From the IMG/VR virus record IMGVR_UViG_3300035070_003441, positions 1 through 21,745 of that record: a stretch of 21,745 nt of DNA; one strand, written 5' to 3'. A program made the translations under genes and the position numbers. Positions 2,688 to 17,325 of this stretch are shown piece after piece (the first letter of the stretch is position 1; each line of letters starts with the position of its first letter). The notes under the pieces were generated by a model, which made no database searches, was not told the DNA's origin, and saw only the letters and a list, made by a program, of their open reading frames with translations. This DNA is from a virus.

Positions 2688-3036
2688 GGGGCACGCTCGC
2701 GTCGATGATGCGGATATTGACGCGCGTCGGCATTTGCAGCGCCTCGTCCTGAACTTCCTCCACCGTCTTTTCGCGCCACTTGGCCCGCGCCTTGAGCCAG
2801 AAGATCATCGCTGCGGTGTCGTTGCCCTTGGTGGCCTTGGTGAACAGCGCCTTGGCCACGGCGGCGTTCGCCTTGGTGGTCGCGGTGTCCAGTTCCTTGC
2901 GGTAGTGCTTGCGCAGCGTCTTCAGGTCGATGGCCAGGAACGCGGCAATCTCTGCCTGCGGCAAGCCAACGAGGCCCGCCAGCGCGTCGACCTGTGCGCG
3001 CGTGCCTTCGGTGGGCTTGTGGGCAGGGTTGGCCAT
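2677..3036 (-). CDS. terS: Terminase small subunit
   Basis: A 119-residue protein directly upstream of terL. The N-terminal half (GLPQAEIAAFLAIDLKTLRKHYRKEL, about residues 23-49) is a helix-turn-helix of the type small terminases use to bind the packaging site. It is followed by a helical segment rich in Ala and Lys (TKANAAVAKALFTKATKG) that would form the oligomerisation core, and a WLKARAKWREK motif common in this family. Its ATG overlaps the stop of the upstream methyltransferase gene (TAATG), suggesting translational coupling. Identification rests on size, domain pattern and position. Confidence 0.88.
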   Translation of the reverse strand: MANPAHKPTEGTRAQVDALAGLVGLPQAEIAAFLAIDLKTLRKHYRKELDTATTKANAAVAKALFTKATKGNDTAAMIFWLKARAKWREKTVEEVQDEALQMPTRVNIRIIDASVPRDP

Positions 3037-3899
3037 TACGCGGGCTCCTCGGCCATGCCGACAAACATCGCCTCGTCTATCTCAACAGGCCCGCATCTGG
3101 CCACGGCGCGCTTGGCGTCTCCCTTCAGGAACACCAGCACGTTCTGGTGCGTCTTGCCGAGCTTGCGGCTCGTGCTGAATTGCTTGCCCGCGCGGATCGG
3201 CAGCGATCCGGCCGCGGTTATCAAGATTGCCTCGTTGTAATAGGCCAGCCCAGCGTCGCGGAACGCCTGCACGGTATCGCCCACAAAGTCGATGTATGCG
3301 CCCTTTTTGTCGCGCACCTCGCCGACGACGAAGCAGGCGAACGAATCCGGCCGCAATAGCGCGCAAGCCTTGGCGATGATCTCGAAGTAGGCGACGCGGA
3401 AAGCGGCATAGTCCATTGTGGACAGGTCCGCGGGGTCGTCGCTGTAGACCTCAAGGTCAGCGTATGGCGGGCATGAAAACACCATGTCGGCCGCAACGTC
3501 CGCGCAGTGCTTGTCGATGTTACGGCTGTCCCCGCATACCCACGCGGGCGGGCGCTCATCATCGCCGCATAGCTCGCTACCCTGCGCCCGGTTGGCCTCC
3601 ACCTGCTCCTGGCGCAGCTCACAGCCCAGGTACTGACGGCCAACCTTTGAGGCCACGATTCCGCGCACTGAGCCGCCCGCGAACGGGTCAAGGATCAGCC
3701 CGCCCGGAGGGCTGAACCAGCGATAGGCGATCTCGCAAAGCACCGGGTCAAAGATGCTCGTCCCGCTGCCGGCTTCGCTGTCCTGCCCGGCGCCATAGGC
3801 CAGCCCGGCGCCATAGGCCAGCCCGGCGCTTGCGTCTGCCTTCGCCCGATCAAGCGGCATTGCTGCCCCCCCCGGAATGGCGTTTGGGTTACGGCTCAC
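3036..3899 (-). CDS. DNA N4/N6-methyltransferase, C-terminal half of a ParB-methyltransferase unit
   Basis: The S-adenosylmethionine site DPFAGGS is at residues 71-77 (motif I) and the catalytic SCPPY at 142-146 (motif IV), giving an amino-methyltransferase acting on adenine N6 or cytosine N4. The block GTSIFDPVLCEIAYRWF just before motif I is typical of phage proteins in which a ParB-like domain is fused to this enzyme. Here it is a separate frame. I chose the GTG at 3899 because it overlaps the ParB-like stop as GTGA, the junction style used through this operon, and has AGGG about 8 bases upstream. An ATG at 3860 is an alternative, with a G-tract at the ribosome-binding position. The frame is actually open upstream to 4151, so one -1 shift would fuse the two genes. 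The N-terminus carries the 18-bp repeat as LAYGAG twice. Confidence 0.82.
   Translation of the reverse strand: MSRNPNAIPGGAAMPLDRAKADASAGLAYGAGLAYGAGQDSEAGSGTSIFDPVLCEIAYRWFSPPGGLILDPFAGGSVRGIVASKVGRQYLGCELRQEQVEANRAQGSELCGDDERPPAWVCGDSRNIDKHCADVAADMVFSCPPYADLEVYSDDPADLSTMDYAAFRVAYFEIIAKACALLRPDSFACFVVGEVRDKKGAYIDFVGDTVQAFRDAGLAYYNEAILITAAGSLPIRAGKQFSTSRKLGKTHQNVLVFLKGDAKRAVARCGPVEIDEAMFVGMAEEPA
3786..3829. repeat. 18-bp in-frame tandem repeat (2.4 copies)
   Basis: The unit CCCGGCGCCATAGGCCAG occurs at 3786-3803 and 3804-3821, with a partial third copy to 3829. It lies in the N-terminus of the methyltransferase frame and encodes LAYGAG twice. Being a multiple of 3, copy change would alter linker length but not frame. 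Confidence 0.95.
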
Positions 3900-4660
3900 A
3901 ACGGCCGCCCTGCGCCATTGCCGCGCTGCTTTTTGCTGTAGTCGCACGCTGGCCTGGCGCTGCCGCCTGGCGCTGCCGCCTGGCGCTGCCTGTCGAATCG
4001 TTCGCTTTGCCCCTGCGTGCCGCTGTAATTCAATGTCCCGTCCTTGTTCCTCGTCACGGTTGGCGGGTGGGGCGGTGTTCCTTGCCCCCCCCCGCGCCCA
4101 AGTTCGCTCTTGATGCCCAGCGCCAGCCAGGCGCGCTTTCGGTCCTGCCACCAGCCCTCGCGCGCGTTCAGCACTGAGAACGGCGGCAGCATGAAACGAT
4201 CGGATAGCTTGCCGGCCCCTACCTCTTGGCTTGCCTCGCTTTCCTCCGGGTCCATCAGCGCCAGTTCCTCATCGCTGAACCCGAGCAGGCTCACGTCGAA
4301 GCCGGCGTCCGTCAGCTCGGAGATTTCGAGCCGCAACATCTCATCATCCCACCCGGCATTCAGCGCCAGCTTGTTGTCGGCGATGACATAGGCCCGCTTC
4401 TGCGCCTCGCTCAGGTGCGCCAGTTCGATCACGGGCACGGTGTCCATGCCCAGCTTGCGCGCCGCCAGGATGCGGCCATGCCCGGCGATCACGCCGTTTG
4501 CACCGTCGACCAGCACCGGATTTGTGAACCCGAACTCACGGATGCTGGCCGCGATCTGCGCCACCTGTGCGTCGGAGTGCGTGCGGCTGTTGCGGGCATA
4601 CGGAATCAGATCCGCGACGGCCACGGCTTTGTAAGGGGGGAAATTCACGCTACCTGCCAT
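3896..4660 (-). CDS. ParB/Srx-like domain protein, N-terminal half of a ParB-methyltransferase unit
   Basis: A ParB N-terminal-like domain covers about residues 10-110: DLIPYARNSRTHSDAQV, then GVIAGHGRILAARKLG with GHGR at 60-63 and the usual ADNKLALNAGWD. In phages this domain commonly precedes a DNA methyltransferase. Residues about 155-185 (FMLPPFSVLNAREGWWQDRK..., then GIKSELGRGG) match what is normally the start of the methyltransferase part of the fused protein, so the break falls inside the usual linker. After three glycines encoded by a 9-G tract the tail is low complexity and ends in a TGA overlapping the methyltransferase GTG. Start candidates are TTG 4681, ATG 4660 (used here) and GTG 4648, which has the best-spaced AGG. 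It overlaps Rz1 by 11 bp. Confidence 0.82.
   Translation of the reverse strand: MAGSVNFPPYKAVAVADLIPYARNSRTHSDAQVAQIAASIREFGFTNPVLVDGANGVIAGHGRILAARKLGMDTVPVIELAHLSEAQKRAYVIADNKLALNAGWDDEMLRLEISELTDAGFDVSLLGFSDEELALMDPEESEASQEVGAGKLSDRFMLPPFSVLNAREGWWQDRKRAWLALGIKSELGRGGGQGTPPHPPTVTRNKDGTLNYSGTQGQSERFDRQRQAAAPGGSARPACDYSKKQRGNGAGRPL
3954..3990. repeat. 13-bp out-of-frame tandem repeat (2.8 copies)
   Basis: The unit CTGGCGCTGCCGC occurs at 3954-3966 and 3967-3979, and 11 of 13 bases again at 3980-3990. It lies in the 3' part of the ParB-like gene. Thirteen is 1 modulo 3, so gain of one copy, or loss of two, would move the ParB-like frame into the methyltransferase frame, which is open here. 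Confidence 0.95.
4085..4093. repeat. Homopolymer tract of 9 C (G9 on the coding strand)
   Basis: A run of nine G on the coding strand is read as three glycines in the ParB-like gene. Gain of one base would place ribosomes in the downstream methyltransferase frame. A second run of eight (3866-3873) lies at the methyltransferase N-terminus. Tracts of this length are prone both to slippage in cells and to sequencing error. Confidence 0.95.
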
Positions 4661-4979
4661 GATCGAAGTTGAACTGCTCAACGCACCGAATCAGCTCGCG
4701 GTGCGCCTCTTGGCACACGACGACCTCGCCGAGCGCATCGGATGCGAGCAACACAGCATCGGCGCAGGTCTTGATGGGCATCGGGTCAACGCCCTTGCAC
4801 AGCACTAGCGCCCGGTCGAGGCACTGAATGATCGGGCACTTCGCCTGCGGCGGCGCTTCTGGTGGCTTCGGCCTGAGCCATGAGCATGCTTGCAAGCTCA
4901 TCAGGCACAGGACACTCAGCGAGGCTCGGCGCAGCGCTAACGCCTTGCCGGGCGCGTTCCTTTCCCCGATCTCGCGCAT
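4650..4979 (-). CDS. Rz1-like outer-membrane spanin lipoprotein
   Basis: This frame begins inside the Rz-like gene in another frame and runs past its end, the classical embedded Rz/Rz1 arrangement. The N-terminus has basic residues (ALALRRA), a hydrophobic stretch SLSVLCLMSLQ and a Cys in an LQAC lipobox-like site. A proline-rich segment follows (RPKPPEAPPQAKCP), the hallmark of o-spanins. The predicted product is 109 residues from the ATG at 4979, longer than lambda Rz1, with extra Cys residues in the C-terminal half. Spanins fuse inner and outer membranes in the last step of Gram-negative lysis. The exact start is uncertain because the ribosome-binding site is poor. The frame is open upstream to 5516, but that part is antisense-free shadow of the endolysin gene. 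Confidence 0.78.
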   Translation of the reverse strand: MREIGERNAPGKALALRRASLSVLCLMSLQACSWLRPKPPEAPPQAKCPIIQCLDRALVLCKGVDPMPIKTCADAVLLASDALGEVVVCQEAHRELIRCVEQFNFDHGR

Positions 4980-5154
4980 CCTGCGCAGCCACAAAACGGC
5001 GCTCCGCATCGACGGTCGCGGCTGGCTTGTCGGCGGCGATGACCAGTTGCCGCTGGGCTTCGTCGAGGGCGGCTGACTTGTAGCGCCAGTCGCAAACGAA
5101 GTACCCGCCCGCGAAGGCAAGCAGAAGCACGGCAACGGTAGACCATCCCGACAC
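4786..5154 (-). CDS. Rz-like inner-membrane spanin
   Basis: A 122-residue protein with one N-terminal membrane segment (TVAVLLLAFAGGYFVCDW, about residues 6-23), followed by a charged, helical periplasmic region rich in Ala, Gln, Arg and Glu, as in i-spanins. It begins one base after the endolysin stop (GTG at 5154) and contains the out-of-frame Rz1-like gene. It would span the periplasm with the Rz1-like lipoprotein to disrupt the outer membrane after the cell wall is degraded. Sequence conservation in this family is low, so the call rests on topology and position. Confidence 0.82.
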   Translation of the reverse strand: MSGWSTVAVLLLAFAGGYFVCDWRYKSAALDEAQRQLVIAADKPAATVDAERRFVAAQDARDRGKERARQGVSAAPSLAECPVPDELASMLMAQAEATRSAAAGEVPDHSVPRPGASAVQGR

Positions 5155-5155
5155 A

Positions 5156-5749
5156 CTACGCCCTCCCGACTTCGGTCAAGGCTTCCTCGCACAGCGCGGC
5201 CTCGGCCTCTCGGCGACGCAGCAGGCCGGCGAGCCCCTTGCCTTCCCAGATGCGCCGCATCGACAGGAACGCGCGGGCCATGCCGGCGTAGTCCTTGCGG
5301 ACCACCAGCGGCTGCAGCTCGCGCATCTCGCGGCGACGGTCGAGCGCGTCGCCGGCCTTTTTGGTCAGCGACGTGCCACGGTTGTAGGCCAGCGAGATCA
5401 GCGCGGCCTGTGCTTTCGGATGCAGTCGATGTGATCCTGGCCATGCGACCTTGACTGCTGCGAACGTCAGCGAGAGCGTCTGCGCGAGGCGTGAATCGGC
5501 CTGCTGCTGGCTCCACACTGTGCCGCGCTTGACGTCGGCGCCTGTCTGTCCGTACCCAATCGTCCAGGGATCGCCGGATAGGTGCCGCAGGTGCTCTGGC
5601 ACGCCAGCGCCCCGTCCGATCTGCTCGGCAGCCTTCGGCCCCAGCGCCTTGGCCAGCGGGCTGGCCGGGTCCGGGTAGGCCACCAGATAGCAGCCCTCCT
5701 CAGCCTTGATCAGCCGCTGGGCGACGGTCAGGGCGATGTCATCGTTCAC
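5156..5749 (-). CDS. Endolysin, T4-type lysozyme (glycoside hydrolase family 24)
   Basis: A muramidase that cleaves the N-acetylmuramic acid-N-acetylglucosamine bond of peptidoglycan. The catalytic triad can be placed as Glu18 (IKAEEG), Asp27 (YPDPA) and Thr69 (WTIGYGQT), followed by AQAALISLAYNRG, the conserved helix of the family. About 35 extra residues (ASPLAKALGPKAAEQIGRG...) separate Asp from the WTIGYG strand compared with T4 lysozyme. The 197-residue product has no signal peptide or N-terminal membrane anchor, so export should depend on a holin. The GTG start overlaps the upstream stop as GTGA. Confidence 0.93.
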   Translation of the reverse strand: MNDDIALTVAQRLIKAEEGCYLVAYPDPASPLAKALGPKAAEQIGRGAGVPEHLRHLSGDPWTIGYGQTGADVKRGTVWSQQQADSRLAQTLSLTFAAVKVAWPGSHRLHPKAQAALISLAYNRGTSLTKKAGDALDRRREMRELQPLVVRKDYAGMARAFLSMRRIWEGKGLAGLLRRREAEAALCEEALTEVGRA

Positions 5750-7354: not shown

Positions 7355-7524
7355 CCCTCGGTCCCCCGTAGAACCTGGTCTTTCGCGAGTTCGAGAATCC
7401 CCAGCGCGGCCACACCGCCCCAGGTGAACGCCGCGCGCAGTGTCTTGGTCGCTACCTGCTCGCAGCTCACATCCTCGAACACGGTGCCGAAGGTGCGGAT
7501 GACGTCTGTTGCGCTGCCGGTCAT
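7351..7524 (-). CDS. Small hypothetical protein
   Basis: A 57-residue frame with ATG at 7524 overlapping the methyltransferase stop (ATGA) and a stop overlapping the next start (ATGA). The sequence begins MTGSATDVIRTFGTVFEDVS and ends ELAKDQVLRGTEG. The middle (LRAAFTWGGVAALGILELA) is moderately hydrophobic but too short and interrupted for a confident membrane segment. Function unknown; the exact overlaps at both ends are the main support that it is real. Confidence 0.62.
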   Translation of the reverse strand: MTGSATDVIRTFGTVFEDVSCEQVATKTLRAAFTWGGVAALGILELAKDQVLRGTEG

Positions 7525-8186
7525 GCGATCAACCTACCCTGCCGCTGCGCGTCTTGGATGCGGCGGCAGGCGATGTCGAAATACTTGGGTTCGCGCTCGA
7601 TGCCGATGAAACTGCGGCCAAGGTTCATGCACGCGACGCCCGTGGTGCCGCTGCCCATGAATGGGTCGACGACTAGTTCGCCGTCAAGCGACGCACGATT
7701 AACTATCCAAATCATCAAGCGTGTCGGCTTCGGACACGGGTGACCGTTTTTGTCAGCCAGTTCGTTCCACTGAACAGACTGTGGCAATTTTCTATTTTTG
7801 TGCGGGTCTTTTCCGTAATACAGAATCGGCTGAGACGTATTCGTTCCCCACCGACAAAAACCAGCGCCCGCTGGGTTATAAATAGCTCCTATTTCGTCGG
7901 GAGGAGGATACGAAAAACAGTTCCGATTTCCAGGCGTTATGACAACTCGGCTAGCCATCTGTAAGCATTTCTTGATAACCGCGACGCATACCGATCTGAC
8001 ATATTCAGGAGAATCAACGAACCCAGAGTAAGCAACTTTACCCATTGAGGTCGGCCCGTGTTCGCCAAGATGAACCCCATACGGCGGATCAGTAATCACC
8101 GCGTCCACCTTCGGGAGCGTCGGCAAAATGTCGCGGCAATCGCCGAGGTAAAGCGTGGCGTTTCCGATGACTTCGATTCGGCTCAT
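7521..8186 (-). CDS. Site-specific DNA methyltransferase (N4-cytosine or N6-adenine, beta-type order)
   Basis: 221 residues. Catalytic TDPPY is at residues 32-36 (motif IV) and the SAM-binding DPFMGSG at 174-180 (motif I), followed by FIGIEREPKYFDIACRRI (motif II region). Motif IV before motif I is the beta arrangement common in phage amino-methyltransferases. The ATG at 8186 has GGAG eight bases upstream and overlaps the previous stop as ATGA. No restriction nuclease is adjacent, so this is probably an orphan enzyme, likely protecting phage DNA from host restriction. Residues about 42-165, where target recognition is expected, are encoded by distinctly AT-rich DNA (about 47% GC over 7741-7980 by hand count), unlike the flanks. 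Confidence 0.9.
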   Translation of the reverse strand: MSRIEVIGNATLYLGDCRDILPTLPKVDAVITDPPYGVHLGEHGPTSMGKVAYSGFVDSPEYVRSVCVAVIKKCLQMASRVVITPGNRNCFSYPPPDEIGAIYNPAGAGFCRWGTNTSQPILYYGKDPHKNRKLPQSVQWNELADKNGHPCPKPTRLMIWIVNRASLDGELVVDPFMGSGTTGVACMNLGRSFIGIEREPKYFDIACRRIQDAQRQGRLIA

Positions 8187-8593
8187 TTCGCCAACTCCGT
8201 CGCGCACTCGTTCCTGTGATCCGCCGCACGCGGGCACCGCTTGTCGCCGCAGGTCGGGCAAAGGTTCATGCGGAAGCGCAGAAACAAACCGATCCCGTTC
8301 GGGCCTGCTTGCTCCTTGTCGCACCTTTCACACCAGCACTCGACGACACCCGCCAGCTCCGTCAGCTCCCGCATCAACTGCGGATCGTTCGTGATCTGCG
8401 CAAACCGCAGCACGTCAGCGCGCGGCAGCCACCGACACCCGGCGCATTGCCAGCCCTCAAGCACCGGCACAGGCGTCGCGCGGTCGCCGGTTGACCACGA
8501 TTTGCACGGCTGCGACATGCGGTGCGGGATCAGCTCGCCGGAGGGGTGTTCGTAGGCGACGAACTCGGGGCGGTTGTGGCAGGCGGGGGTCAC
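8183..8593 (-). CDS. Cys-rich protein, probable zinc-binding
   Basis: 136 residues from a GTG at 8593 overlapping the RusA-like stop (GTGA), with GGAGGGGG a few bases upstream. Cys pairs appear as WQCAGCRW, ECWCERCDKE and CPTCGDKRCPRAADH, forming at least two likely zinc sites. It resembles small phage proteins carrying several knuckles but I cannot name the family. It lies among replication and recombination genes and upstream of a methyltransferase, so nucleic-acid binding is plausible. The frame stays open further upstream to 8656 but that part is a glycine-rich shadow. Confidence 0.7.
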   Translation of the reverse strand: MTPACHNRPEFVAYEHPSGELIPHRMSQPCKSWSTGDRATPVPVLEGWQCAGCRWLPRADVLRFAQITNDPQLMRELTELAGVVECWCERCDKEQAGPNGIGLFLRFRMNLCPTCGDKRCPRAADHRNECATELAK

Positions 8594-14649: not shown

Positions 14650-15195
14650 ATGCCAGCCGCCTTGAACATCGCTGGGCAACGCTTCGGGCGATTGGTCGCC
14701 ATCTCGCAAGGCGAGGCAGACAAGCACGGCAAGCGGATTTGGTTGTTTGTCTGCGACTGCGGAAAGCAAAAGGAGATCACGGCATCAAGCGTGACAAGCG
14801 GCAAGACAAGCTCTTGCGGATGCCTTCATCGCGAATCGAGTGCAAGCCGGGCGAAGCAAGCTGGCGCCGCGCGCGCCAAGACGCTGACGACTCACGGAAA
14901 GTCTGGAACGCCGGAGTACTACGTCTGGAAATCGATGCGGGCGAGGTGCAACAACAAAAGCGATTTGGACTACCCCGCTTATGGCGGCCGAGGGATTCGC
15001 GTCTGCGCTCGATGGGATGACTTCGCGAACTTCCTGGCCGACATGGGTGAGCGCCCGAGCGACAAACACAGCATCGACCGCATCGACACGAACGGCAACT
15101 ACGAACCAAGCAACTGCCGTTGGGCTGACGATTTTCAACAAGCAAACAACCGACGCAAACGCGGAACCGGCGAGTACGCAAAAAGGGCAGCATGA
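14650..15195 (+). CDS. HNH/AP2-type homing endonuclease-like protein
   Basis: 181 residues from ATG 14650, with GGAGGG upstream. The N-terminal part GQRFGRLVAI ... WLFVCDCGKQKEI ... KTSSCGCLHRES has two Cys pairs, a zinc finger typical of this group. The C-terminal nuclease-like part shows YYVWKSMRARCNN, YPAYGGRGIRVCARWDDFAN, then HSIDRIDTNGNYEPSNCRWAD, the familiar pattern of phage free-standing HNH-related endonucleases. Base composition is lower in GC than the neighbours. It lies between an unknown gene and the ATPase gene, overlapping the latter by ATGA. These genes move by homing and are usually neutral to the phage. Confidence 0.82.
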   Translation: MPAALNIAGQRFGRLVAISQGEADKHGKRIWLFVCDCGKQKEITASSVTSGKTSSCGCLHRESSASRAKQAGAARAKTLTTHGKSGTPEYYVWKSMRARCNNKSDLDYPAYGGRGIRVCARWDDFANFLADMGERPSDKHSIDRIDTNGNYEPSNCRWADDFQQANNRRKRGTGEYAKRAA

Positions 15196-16568: not shown

Positions 16569-16742
16569 ATGCCCATTTACGCAGTCACCAACACCGAAAC
16601 CCAGAAGACACGCCTGGTTGACGCTCCGAACGCCGCGCAGGCGGCCCGGCATGTGGTCAAGACCTCCCACGCCATCGCCATTCCATCGCCGGCTCAGTTG
16701 ATCGAGCTGACGAAGGCTGGCGTCGAAGTTGAAGCGGCCTGA
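16569..16742 (+). CDS. Small hypothetical protein
   Basis: 57 residues from ATG 16569: MPIYAVTNTETQKTRLVDAP, then a helix NAAQAARHVVKTSHAIAIPS and PAQLIELTKAGVEVEAA. The pattern (strand, polar turn, Ala-rich helix, S-x-A-I-A-x-P-S) recurs as a small conserved phage protein of unknown role near recombination genes. No strong ribosome-binding site is visible, only GCGCGAG about 8 bases upstream. Confidence 0.7.
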   Translation: MPIYAVTNTETQKTRLVDAPNAAQAARHVVKTSHAIAIPSPAQLIELTKAGVEVEAA

Positions 16743-16752
16743 GCGCACACCC

Positions 16753-17325
16753 ATGGCCACCATCCCGCAATCAGTCACCAGCCCGACACCCTCGGACATT
16801 GCCAGATTTAACCGCAAGGTCGAACGCTCAGAACAAGGCTGCTGGATGTGGGTCGGAGCGATGCGCCCGAATGGGTACGGCAACTTTAACCTTGGCAACA
16901 AGACCACCGGCGCGCATCGCGCCGCGTGGATTCTTGCAAACGGCCCGATTCCCGATGGCTTGCAAGTCTTGCACAGGTGCGACGTACCAAGCTGCGTAAA
17001 TCCGTCGCATCTGTTCCTTGGGACTCAGGAAGACAACATGCAAGACATGATCGCGAAGGGCCGGCAAGGAAGCTACGCAAGGATTGGCGAAGCAAACCCG
17101 ATGTACGGGAGACGCCACTCTGAAAAGACAAGAGCCATGATTTCTGCGGTCCACCGCGGTCTGCACGCTCGCGAAAAGCACCCGCGCGCAACGATCACCG
17201 AGAAGACAGCGCAGGAAGTGAAACGGCTACGCACCGAAGGGCTCACATGCCCAAGCATTGCGCAGGCGCTTTCGATTTCAATTCATGTTGTGCGCAACAT
17301 TGCCGGGGGCAAGTCATGGCGCTGA
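16753..17325 (+). CDS. HNH homing endonuclease with NUMOD3-like and helix-turn-helix tail
   Basis: 190 residues from ATG 16753. The HNH core is CWMWVGAMRPNGYGNFN, AHRAAWILANGPIP, VLHRCDVPSCVNPSHLFLGT and QEDNMQDMIAKGRQ, with the catalytic His in LHRCD and the Asn/His of NPSHL. It is followed by a NUMOD3-like motif (EANPMYGRRHSEKTRAMIS) and a C-terminal helix-turn-helix (VKRLRTEGLTCPSIAQALSI) that would read the target site. It is lower in GC than its flanks and overlaps the nuclease gene by 10 bp, as expected for an inserted free-standing homing gene. It is the second such gene within 2.1 kb. Confidence 0.9.
   Translation: MATIPQSVTSPTPSDIARFNRKVERSEQGCWMWVGAMRPNGYGNFNLGNKTTGAHRAAWILANGPIPDGLQVLHRCDVPSCVNPSHLFLGTQEDNMQDMIAKGRQGSYARIGEANPMYGRRHSEKTRAMISAVHRGLHAREKHPRATITEKTAQEVKRLRTEGLTCPSIAQALSISIHVVRNIAGGKSWR

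Follow-up and report, generated by a model that had tools for sequence, protein, structure and literature searches.

Does the linker between a phage ParB-like gene and the adjoining DNA methyltransferase (MTase) gene act as a switch and, if so, which of its repeats does the switching? The question is raised by the window, an uncultured-virus contig of 21,745 bp taken at its full length, which encodes terminase, lysozyme and primase-polymerase proteins. The preliminary description of this DNA had pictured the linker as an ON/OFF switch between a fused ParB-MTase enzyme and two separate proteins. Comparison with relatives bears out the variable tract and repeat lengths, and the shifts of frame that they cause, but not a toggle between fused and split forms in the window itself.

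The ParB-MTase junction

The ParB-like gene (nt 3896–4660, minus strand) codes for 254 aa from an ATG at nt 4660, a TTG at nt 4681 being a possible alternative start. Its product has a CTPase/ParB fold and matches phrog_15396 (E = 2.7e-69) and phrog_498 (E = 2.4e-59), while the match to PF02195 (E = 2.9e-5) falls slightly under the Pfam cut-off. The long form of the MTase gene (nt 3036–3899, minus strand) specifies 287 aa with the N-terminus VSRNPNAIPGGAAMPLD, and matches phrog_12517 (E = 4.9e-99), phrog_498 (E = 4.8e-83) and PF01555 (E = 2.8e-11). Its core is of the N6_N4 type, and the DPFAGG and CPPY motifs are invariant in the family alignment. The two domains are not carried by one polypeptide in the window but by two frames that share a GTGA overlap (nt 3896–3899, minus strand), where the ParB stop (TGA, nt 3898–3896) lies over the MTase start (GTG, nt 3899–3897). 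Relatives show ATGA, TAATG or ATGGCTAA at the equivalent place. In the neighbourhood scanned, terminase subunits lie on one side of the unit and lysozyme on the other, and a search of its own genome found no other copy, the record being a single virus contig.

Several repeats lie at this junction, all on the minus strand. A G9 tract (site A, nt 4085–4093) closes the ParB core (SELGR followed by GGG) and opens the ParB tail, and has counterparts of G7 to G15 in relatives. Within the tail are three perfect 13-bp units (nt 3952–3990). A G8 tract (site B, nt 3866–3873) follows in the MTase N-terminus (NAIPGG), 5 nt before an internal ATG (nt 3860–3858) from which a short form of 274 aa is predicted (nt 3036–3860), indifferent to tract length. 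Further on, 2.5 copies of an 18-bp repeat (nt 3785–3829) encode GLAYGA in the N-terminal linker of the MTase. The two G tracts are the only runs of seven or more of any base in the 21.7 kb. All of these tracts, the overlap and the 13-bp repeat could be read in the sequence as first described, except that the G8 tract, placed at first just downstream of the linker, sits inside a conserved MTase N-terminus. The 18-bp repeat was no part of that description.

Other features of the window are recorded here in their own right. Overlapping frames beside the lysozyme gene (nt 4650–5154, minus strand) have, by eye, the look of a putative Rz/Rz1-type spanin pair. A second N6_N4 MTase gene (nt 7521–8324, minus strand; phrog_67, E = 2.7e-50) has no long tracts nearby. 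Two HNH endonuclease-like genes (nt 14650–15195 and nt 16729–17325, plus strand; phrog_374 and phrog_1872) lie amid replication genes and are possibly homing endonucleases.

The open overlap upstream of the MTase

It had been noted that the MTase frame is open for 252 bp upstream of its GTG start, and this is correct (it is open from nt 4151), as is the arithmetic by which a gain of 1 nt, a gain of 13 nt or a loss of 26 nt in the overlap would join both frames. The open stretch says nothing alone, because about half of comparable shadow-frame stretches of 84 codons are also open (50% in the window's own ParB core, 53% in relatives). Substitutions are more telling. Between the window and L003, a relative with 90% MTase identity, the overlap shows 4 synonymous and 0 nonsynonymous changes when read in the ParB frame and 1 and 3 when read in the fused (MTase) frame; against the more distant L004 the counts are 8 and 4 in the ParB frame and 1 and 11 in the fused frame. 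The counts thus identify the overlap as sequence that codes for ParB and show no constraint on the fused frame.

Close relatives of the window

A near-identical copy of the window was not found. The three closest relatives (L002, L003 and L004, with MTases 94%, 90% and 80% identical to that of the window) all encode two separate proteins, as the window does, yet their repeat lengths differ. The site A tract is G9 in the window, G7 in L002, G9 in L003 and absent from L004, and the site B tract is G8, G9, G9 and G11 in the same order. There are three 13-bp units in the window and L002 and two in L003 and L004, and in L002 and L003 the 18-bp repeat is one unit shorter than in the window, with the frame kept. 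The expected variation at the junction was thus present, without the change of architecture that was to accompany it.

What these lengths alter can be read from the ends of the two proteins. With three 13-bp units the ParB-like protein ends in the tail PGGSARPACDYSKKQRGNGAGRPL, which is kept in split relatives and matches the tail of the distant, tract-free L131, L103 and L081; with two units, the tail is read in a different frame. Similarly, the N-terminus of the long MTase form (MxRxPNAIPGG) is retained in tract-free L131 (MSRNPNAIPGGSAIPLD), and the site B tract is therefore MTase coding sequence. Site B is in frame with the MTase in the window (G8), L004 (G11), L168 and L170 (both G9) and L166, and out of frame in L002 and L003 (both G9), L011 (G10) and L162/L163 (G10).

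One stretch of the ParB tail is unusually similar between the window and L004: at nt 3899–3980, 70 of 75 nt are identical (93%), while identity is lower around it (59/75 in the preceding 75 nt, 233/300 in the MTase core), and the two genomes read the stretch in different frames. Is it a recombination cassette, or is it held by constraint at the DNA level?

G tracts across the family

Tract enrichment was assessed in 182 unique loci recovered by protein similarity alone, all loci in the study being metagenomic consensus contigs. The linkers, 42.6 kb in all, contain 56 runs of G8 or longer; the domain cores (233 kb) contain 0, and 690 kb of flanking sequence holds 12 (2 of G and 10 of C). Tracts are about 200-fold commoner in the linkers of relatives than in their flanks, and dinucleotide shuffles gave 1.9–3.8 expected runs against 36 observed. 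The linker runs are carried by 38 of the 182 loci and recur at three sites: site A (SE[LE]GR-GGG, at the ParB core end), site B (NAIP-GGG) and site C (FGQDLMRGEHVV-GGG), the last in the MTase N-termini of other subclades. Outside the ParB-MTase unit, L124 has three C8–C9 runs within 80 nt (nt 5158–5240).

Tracts go together with broken frames. Of the 45 loci with a run of G6 or longer, 26 have conserved linker motifs out of frame, as against 9 of the 134 without (p = 4e-12); once kinship was corrected for, in an earlier locus set, the contrast was between 6.6 and 0.1 independent pairs (median p = 0.016), with 19 changes of frame state. Tract-free relatives keep the FGQDLM motif in frame in 19 of 20 cases. 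Tracts are rare among the prophage relatives, which come from 80 bacterial genomes (L201, L245 and L277 have them), and the tract-free loci are in frame, split ones included. The peptide upstream of the tract has a pN/pS of 0.06 in out-of-frame and 0.08 in in-frame loci, values from motif-picked loci that are biased towards conservation; this purifying selection, persisting even out of frame, argues that OFF states are not permanent. Site A and site C tracts persist in both L176 and L277, only about 74% identical in DNA, so that tracts are retained in the long term while their length changes.

Gene architecture also varies. A single polypeptide contains both ParB and MTase in most of the prophage relatives and in about half of the viral ones, and at least 18 interchanges between fused and split forms can be placed on the MTase tree (FastTree), many branches of which are weak. 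An AlphaFold2 model of the fused relative L006 (23 sequences, pLDDT 74.6) has a ParB/Noc-like fold, a disordered linker (residues 183–233, pLDDT < 50) and a Rossmann MTase, and Foldseek matched the model of the fused relative to Noc (7nfu). A search of solved structures by sequence returned only matches limited to the motif-I stretch of other MTases. As the modelled linker is disordered between two folds, its sequence, frame and length would be free to change without harming either domain.

Near-identical and cousin pairs

Two pairs of contigs catch a change of tract length against an otherwise almost unchanged background (99.8–99.9% identity). Over the 3,601 bp common to L284 and L285 there are 4 substitutions and only one indel, of 2 nt, which lies in the site C tract; G9 puts MAKTNYARTFGQDLMRGEHRVGG in frame with the MTase, and G7 puts it out of frame. 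L162 and L163 have 3,196 bp in common, with 2 substitutions and, as the only indel, G9 against G10 in a similar tract. In both pairs the tract is near the end of one contig (57 and about 150 nt); the contigs concerned are L162 and L285. Tract lengths are equal in L112/L115, L125/L127, L087/L089 and the identical L043/L044, some of these pairs being out of frame; such reproduced lengths speak against random error and likewise against a switch that works very fast. The sequences compared indicate that slippage-driven frame variation is real across the ParB-MTase family, including between near-identical phages.

Among cousins, L017 (G10, fused) and L042 (G8, split) differ at site A and are about 91–92% identical, and L006 and L007, a sister clade, are fused with in-frame G9 and G11. 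The idea that fusion follows tract length thus finds an example in L017/L042, though not in the window's close relatives. L109/L118 (94%) were considered as a further fused/split pair and dropped, their linkers being unrelated.

A tract beside an internal start

The G8 tract of the window is placed at the Shine-Dalgarno position for the internal ATG at nt 3860 (GGGGGGGG-CAGCA-ATG). This arrangement recurs: no more than 12 nt past 44 of the 67 tracts at sites other than A there is an ATG or GTG from which the MTase frame runs open to the core, mostly at a spacing of 1–5 nt. Starts in the other two frames follow 7 and 5 of these tracts, control positions give 14%, and an MTase start follows only 5 of the 32 site A tracts. 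The duplex of G8 with the 16S tail has a calculated energy of -10.1 kcal/mol, against -12.2 kcal/mol for AGGAGG. The start beside the tract is the source of the strongest rival explanation and equally the basis that makes a two-form enzyme possible.

Alternative explanations

According to that rival, poly-G is merely a strong Shine-Dalgarno sequence for the MTase; the enzyme starts after the tract, the upstream frame drifts freely and nothing is switched. The starts lying 1–9 nt past the 44 tracts and the favourable pairing with the 16S tail are what it predicts, and about half of the tract loci are out of frame, near the expectation for neglect. Tracts of G8 to G15 are, however, no better as ribosome-binding sites than GGAGG, and site A tracts mostly precede no MTase start. 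Nor would a neglected frame explain why tract-free relatives, split prophages among them, hold the upstream peptides in frame, or why FGQDLMRGEHVVG and MxRxPNAIPGG are conserved in out-of-frame loci (motif-picked, and so biased). We regard this explanation as unlikely, though it deserves to be taken seriously. Much less probable is the toggle first proposed, in which the G9 tract and 13-bp repeat of the window would switch the product from a fused ParB-MTase to a pair of proteins and back. The frame arithmetic, the alternation of fused and split forms in the family, the L017/L042 pair and the fused L006 and L007 speak for it, but the window and its three close relatives are all split, the open overlap is at chance level with its substitutions fitting the ParB frame, and joining the frames here would scramble the conserved ParB tail.

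Errors of consensus or assembly are usually found in homopolymers, the data consist of metagenomic consensus contigs and the L162 and L285 tracts are close to contig ends. To explain the pattern, about half of all G7–G9 tracts would need to be wrong, while tract lengths, both in and out of frame, recur when near-identical contigs of separate samples are compared; the existence and enrichment of the tracts are not in doubt, and the difference in 13-bp units is not a homopolymer error. This account is therefore very improbable. We give equally little credence to slippage of the ribosome or the polymerase on the G run, by which one allele would yield both frames and DNA length would hardly matter. 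It would explain both why the upstream peptide is conserved where it is out of frame and why lengths are equal in several near-identical pairs, but tract length and context vary widely (G7–G15), and bacterial slippage is best known on A/T runs.

Proposed mechanism

On balance we favour, with some reserve, a contingency locus: a two-gene phage DNA-modification unit with slippage-prone linker repeats, its predicted components being a ParB-like protein and an orphan N6/N4-type MTase. The likelier switch in the window would be the G8 tract at nt 3866–3873 rather than a fused/split toggle. Translation starting at the GTG, where it would be coupled to ParB termination, would continue into the MTase or not depending on this tract, which is at present in frame and would give the long form. 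With the tract serving as Shine-Dalgarno sequence, the ATG 5 nt beyond it would always yield the short form. A change of tract length thus probably alters which enzyme form is made; since the internal ATG may supply MTase in every state, such a switch could also have little effect. The G9 tract (nt 4085–4093) and the 13-bp repeat would set whether the conserved tail of ParB is retained and ParB ends at the MTase start, an ending that would keep the genes translationally coupled. In cousin lineages, a similar tract change may determine whether ParB and MTase are made as one fused protein or apart. Phages of one population would then differ in the form or dose of their MTase and, as a consequence, in how their DNA is methylated, which would serve as a bet against restriction by the host. 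The protein products, the methylation and the reversibility of switching are what we infer from the alleles observed.

More generally, and more tentatively still, poly-G in widespread phage orphan MTases may double as the Shine-Dalgarno sequence for a short form that is always made and as a slippage switch for an N-terminal extension or a whole ParB-like domain, so that the isoform is varied rather than turned simply ON or OFF. Phase variation of methylation counts as a device of bacteria; should phages have it in their own enzymes, one burst would contain particles of differing methylation, a ready hedge against host restriction. The locus also makes gene-calling and 'pseudogene' calls in metagenomes unreliable, and the family offers many natural alleles: in frame, out of frame, fused and split. 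The open-access literature searched, coverage of which was incomplete, yielded no description of an MTase that is encoded by a phage and varies in phase.

Comparison with known systems

ParB-CTPase fusions have been surveyed (PMC12704722), and met2 of the Wolbachia phage WO is a ParB-N6_N4 MTase fusion (PMC3089641). The phage fusions of phrog_498, which both parts of the window's unit match, agree with the unit in their two domains and in domain order, whereas the window and about half of its relatives carry two overlapping genes, here with linker G tracts that shift the frame. The cultured Microcystis phage Mae-JY30 (PP438422) is closer in layout, with a split ParB/MTase whose ParB ends in a ATGGCTAA overlap and an MTase core 72% identical, but it has no G tract and its frames are intact. 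In the poly-G MTases of Helicobacter pylori, a change of tract length fuses two reading frames, and in a G9 case they are joined by the gain of a base (PMC12003011). The present family resembles these and other bacterial MTases that vary in phase through simple sequence repeats (type III mod) in having a homopolymer in the 5' part of the gene or between frames, at a frequency near the MTase 5' coding region that exceeds chance, and in that its length changes the frame, as it does between the near-identical L284/L285 and L162/L163. It differs from a type III mod phasevarion, with Mod and an adjacent Res, in that hmmscan returned ParB, PF01555 and phage families. Here the MTase is phage-encoded and without a restriction enzyme; it has a ParB-like partner, and an internal start adjoins the tract.
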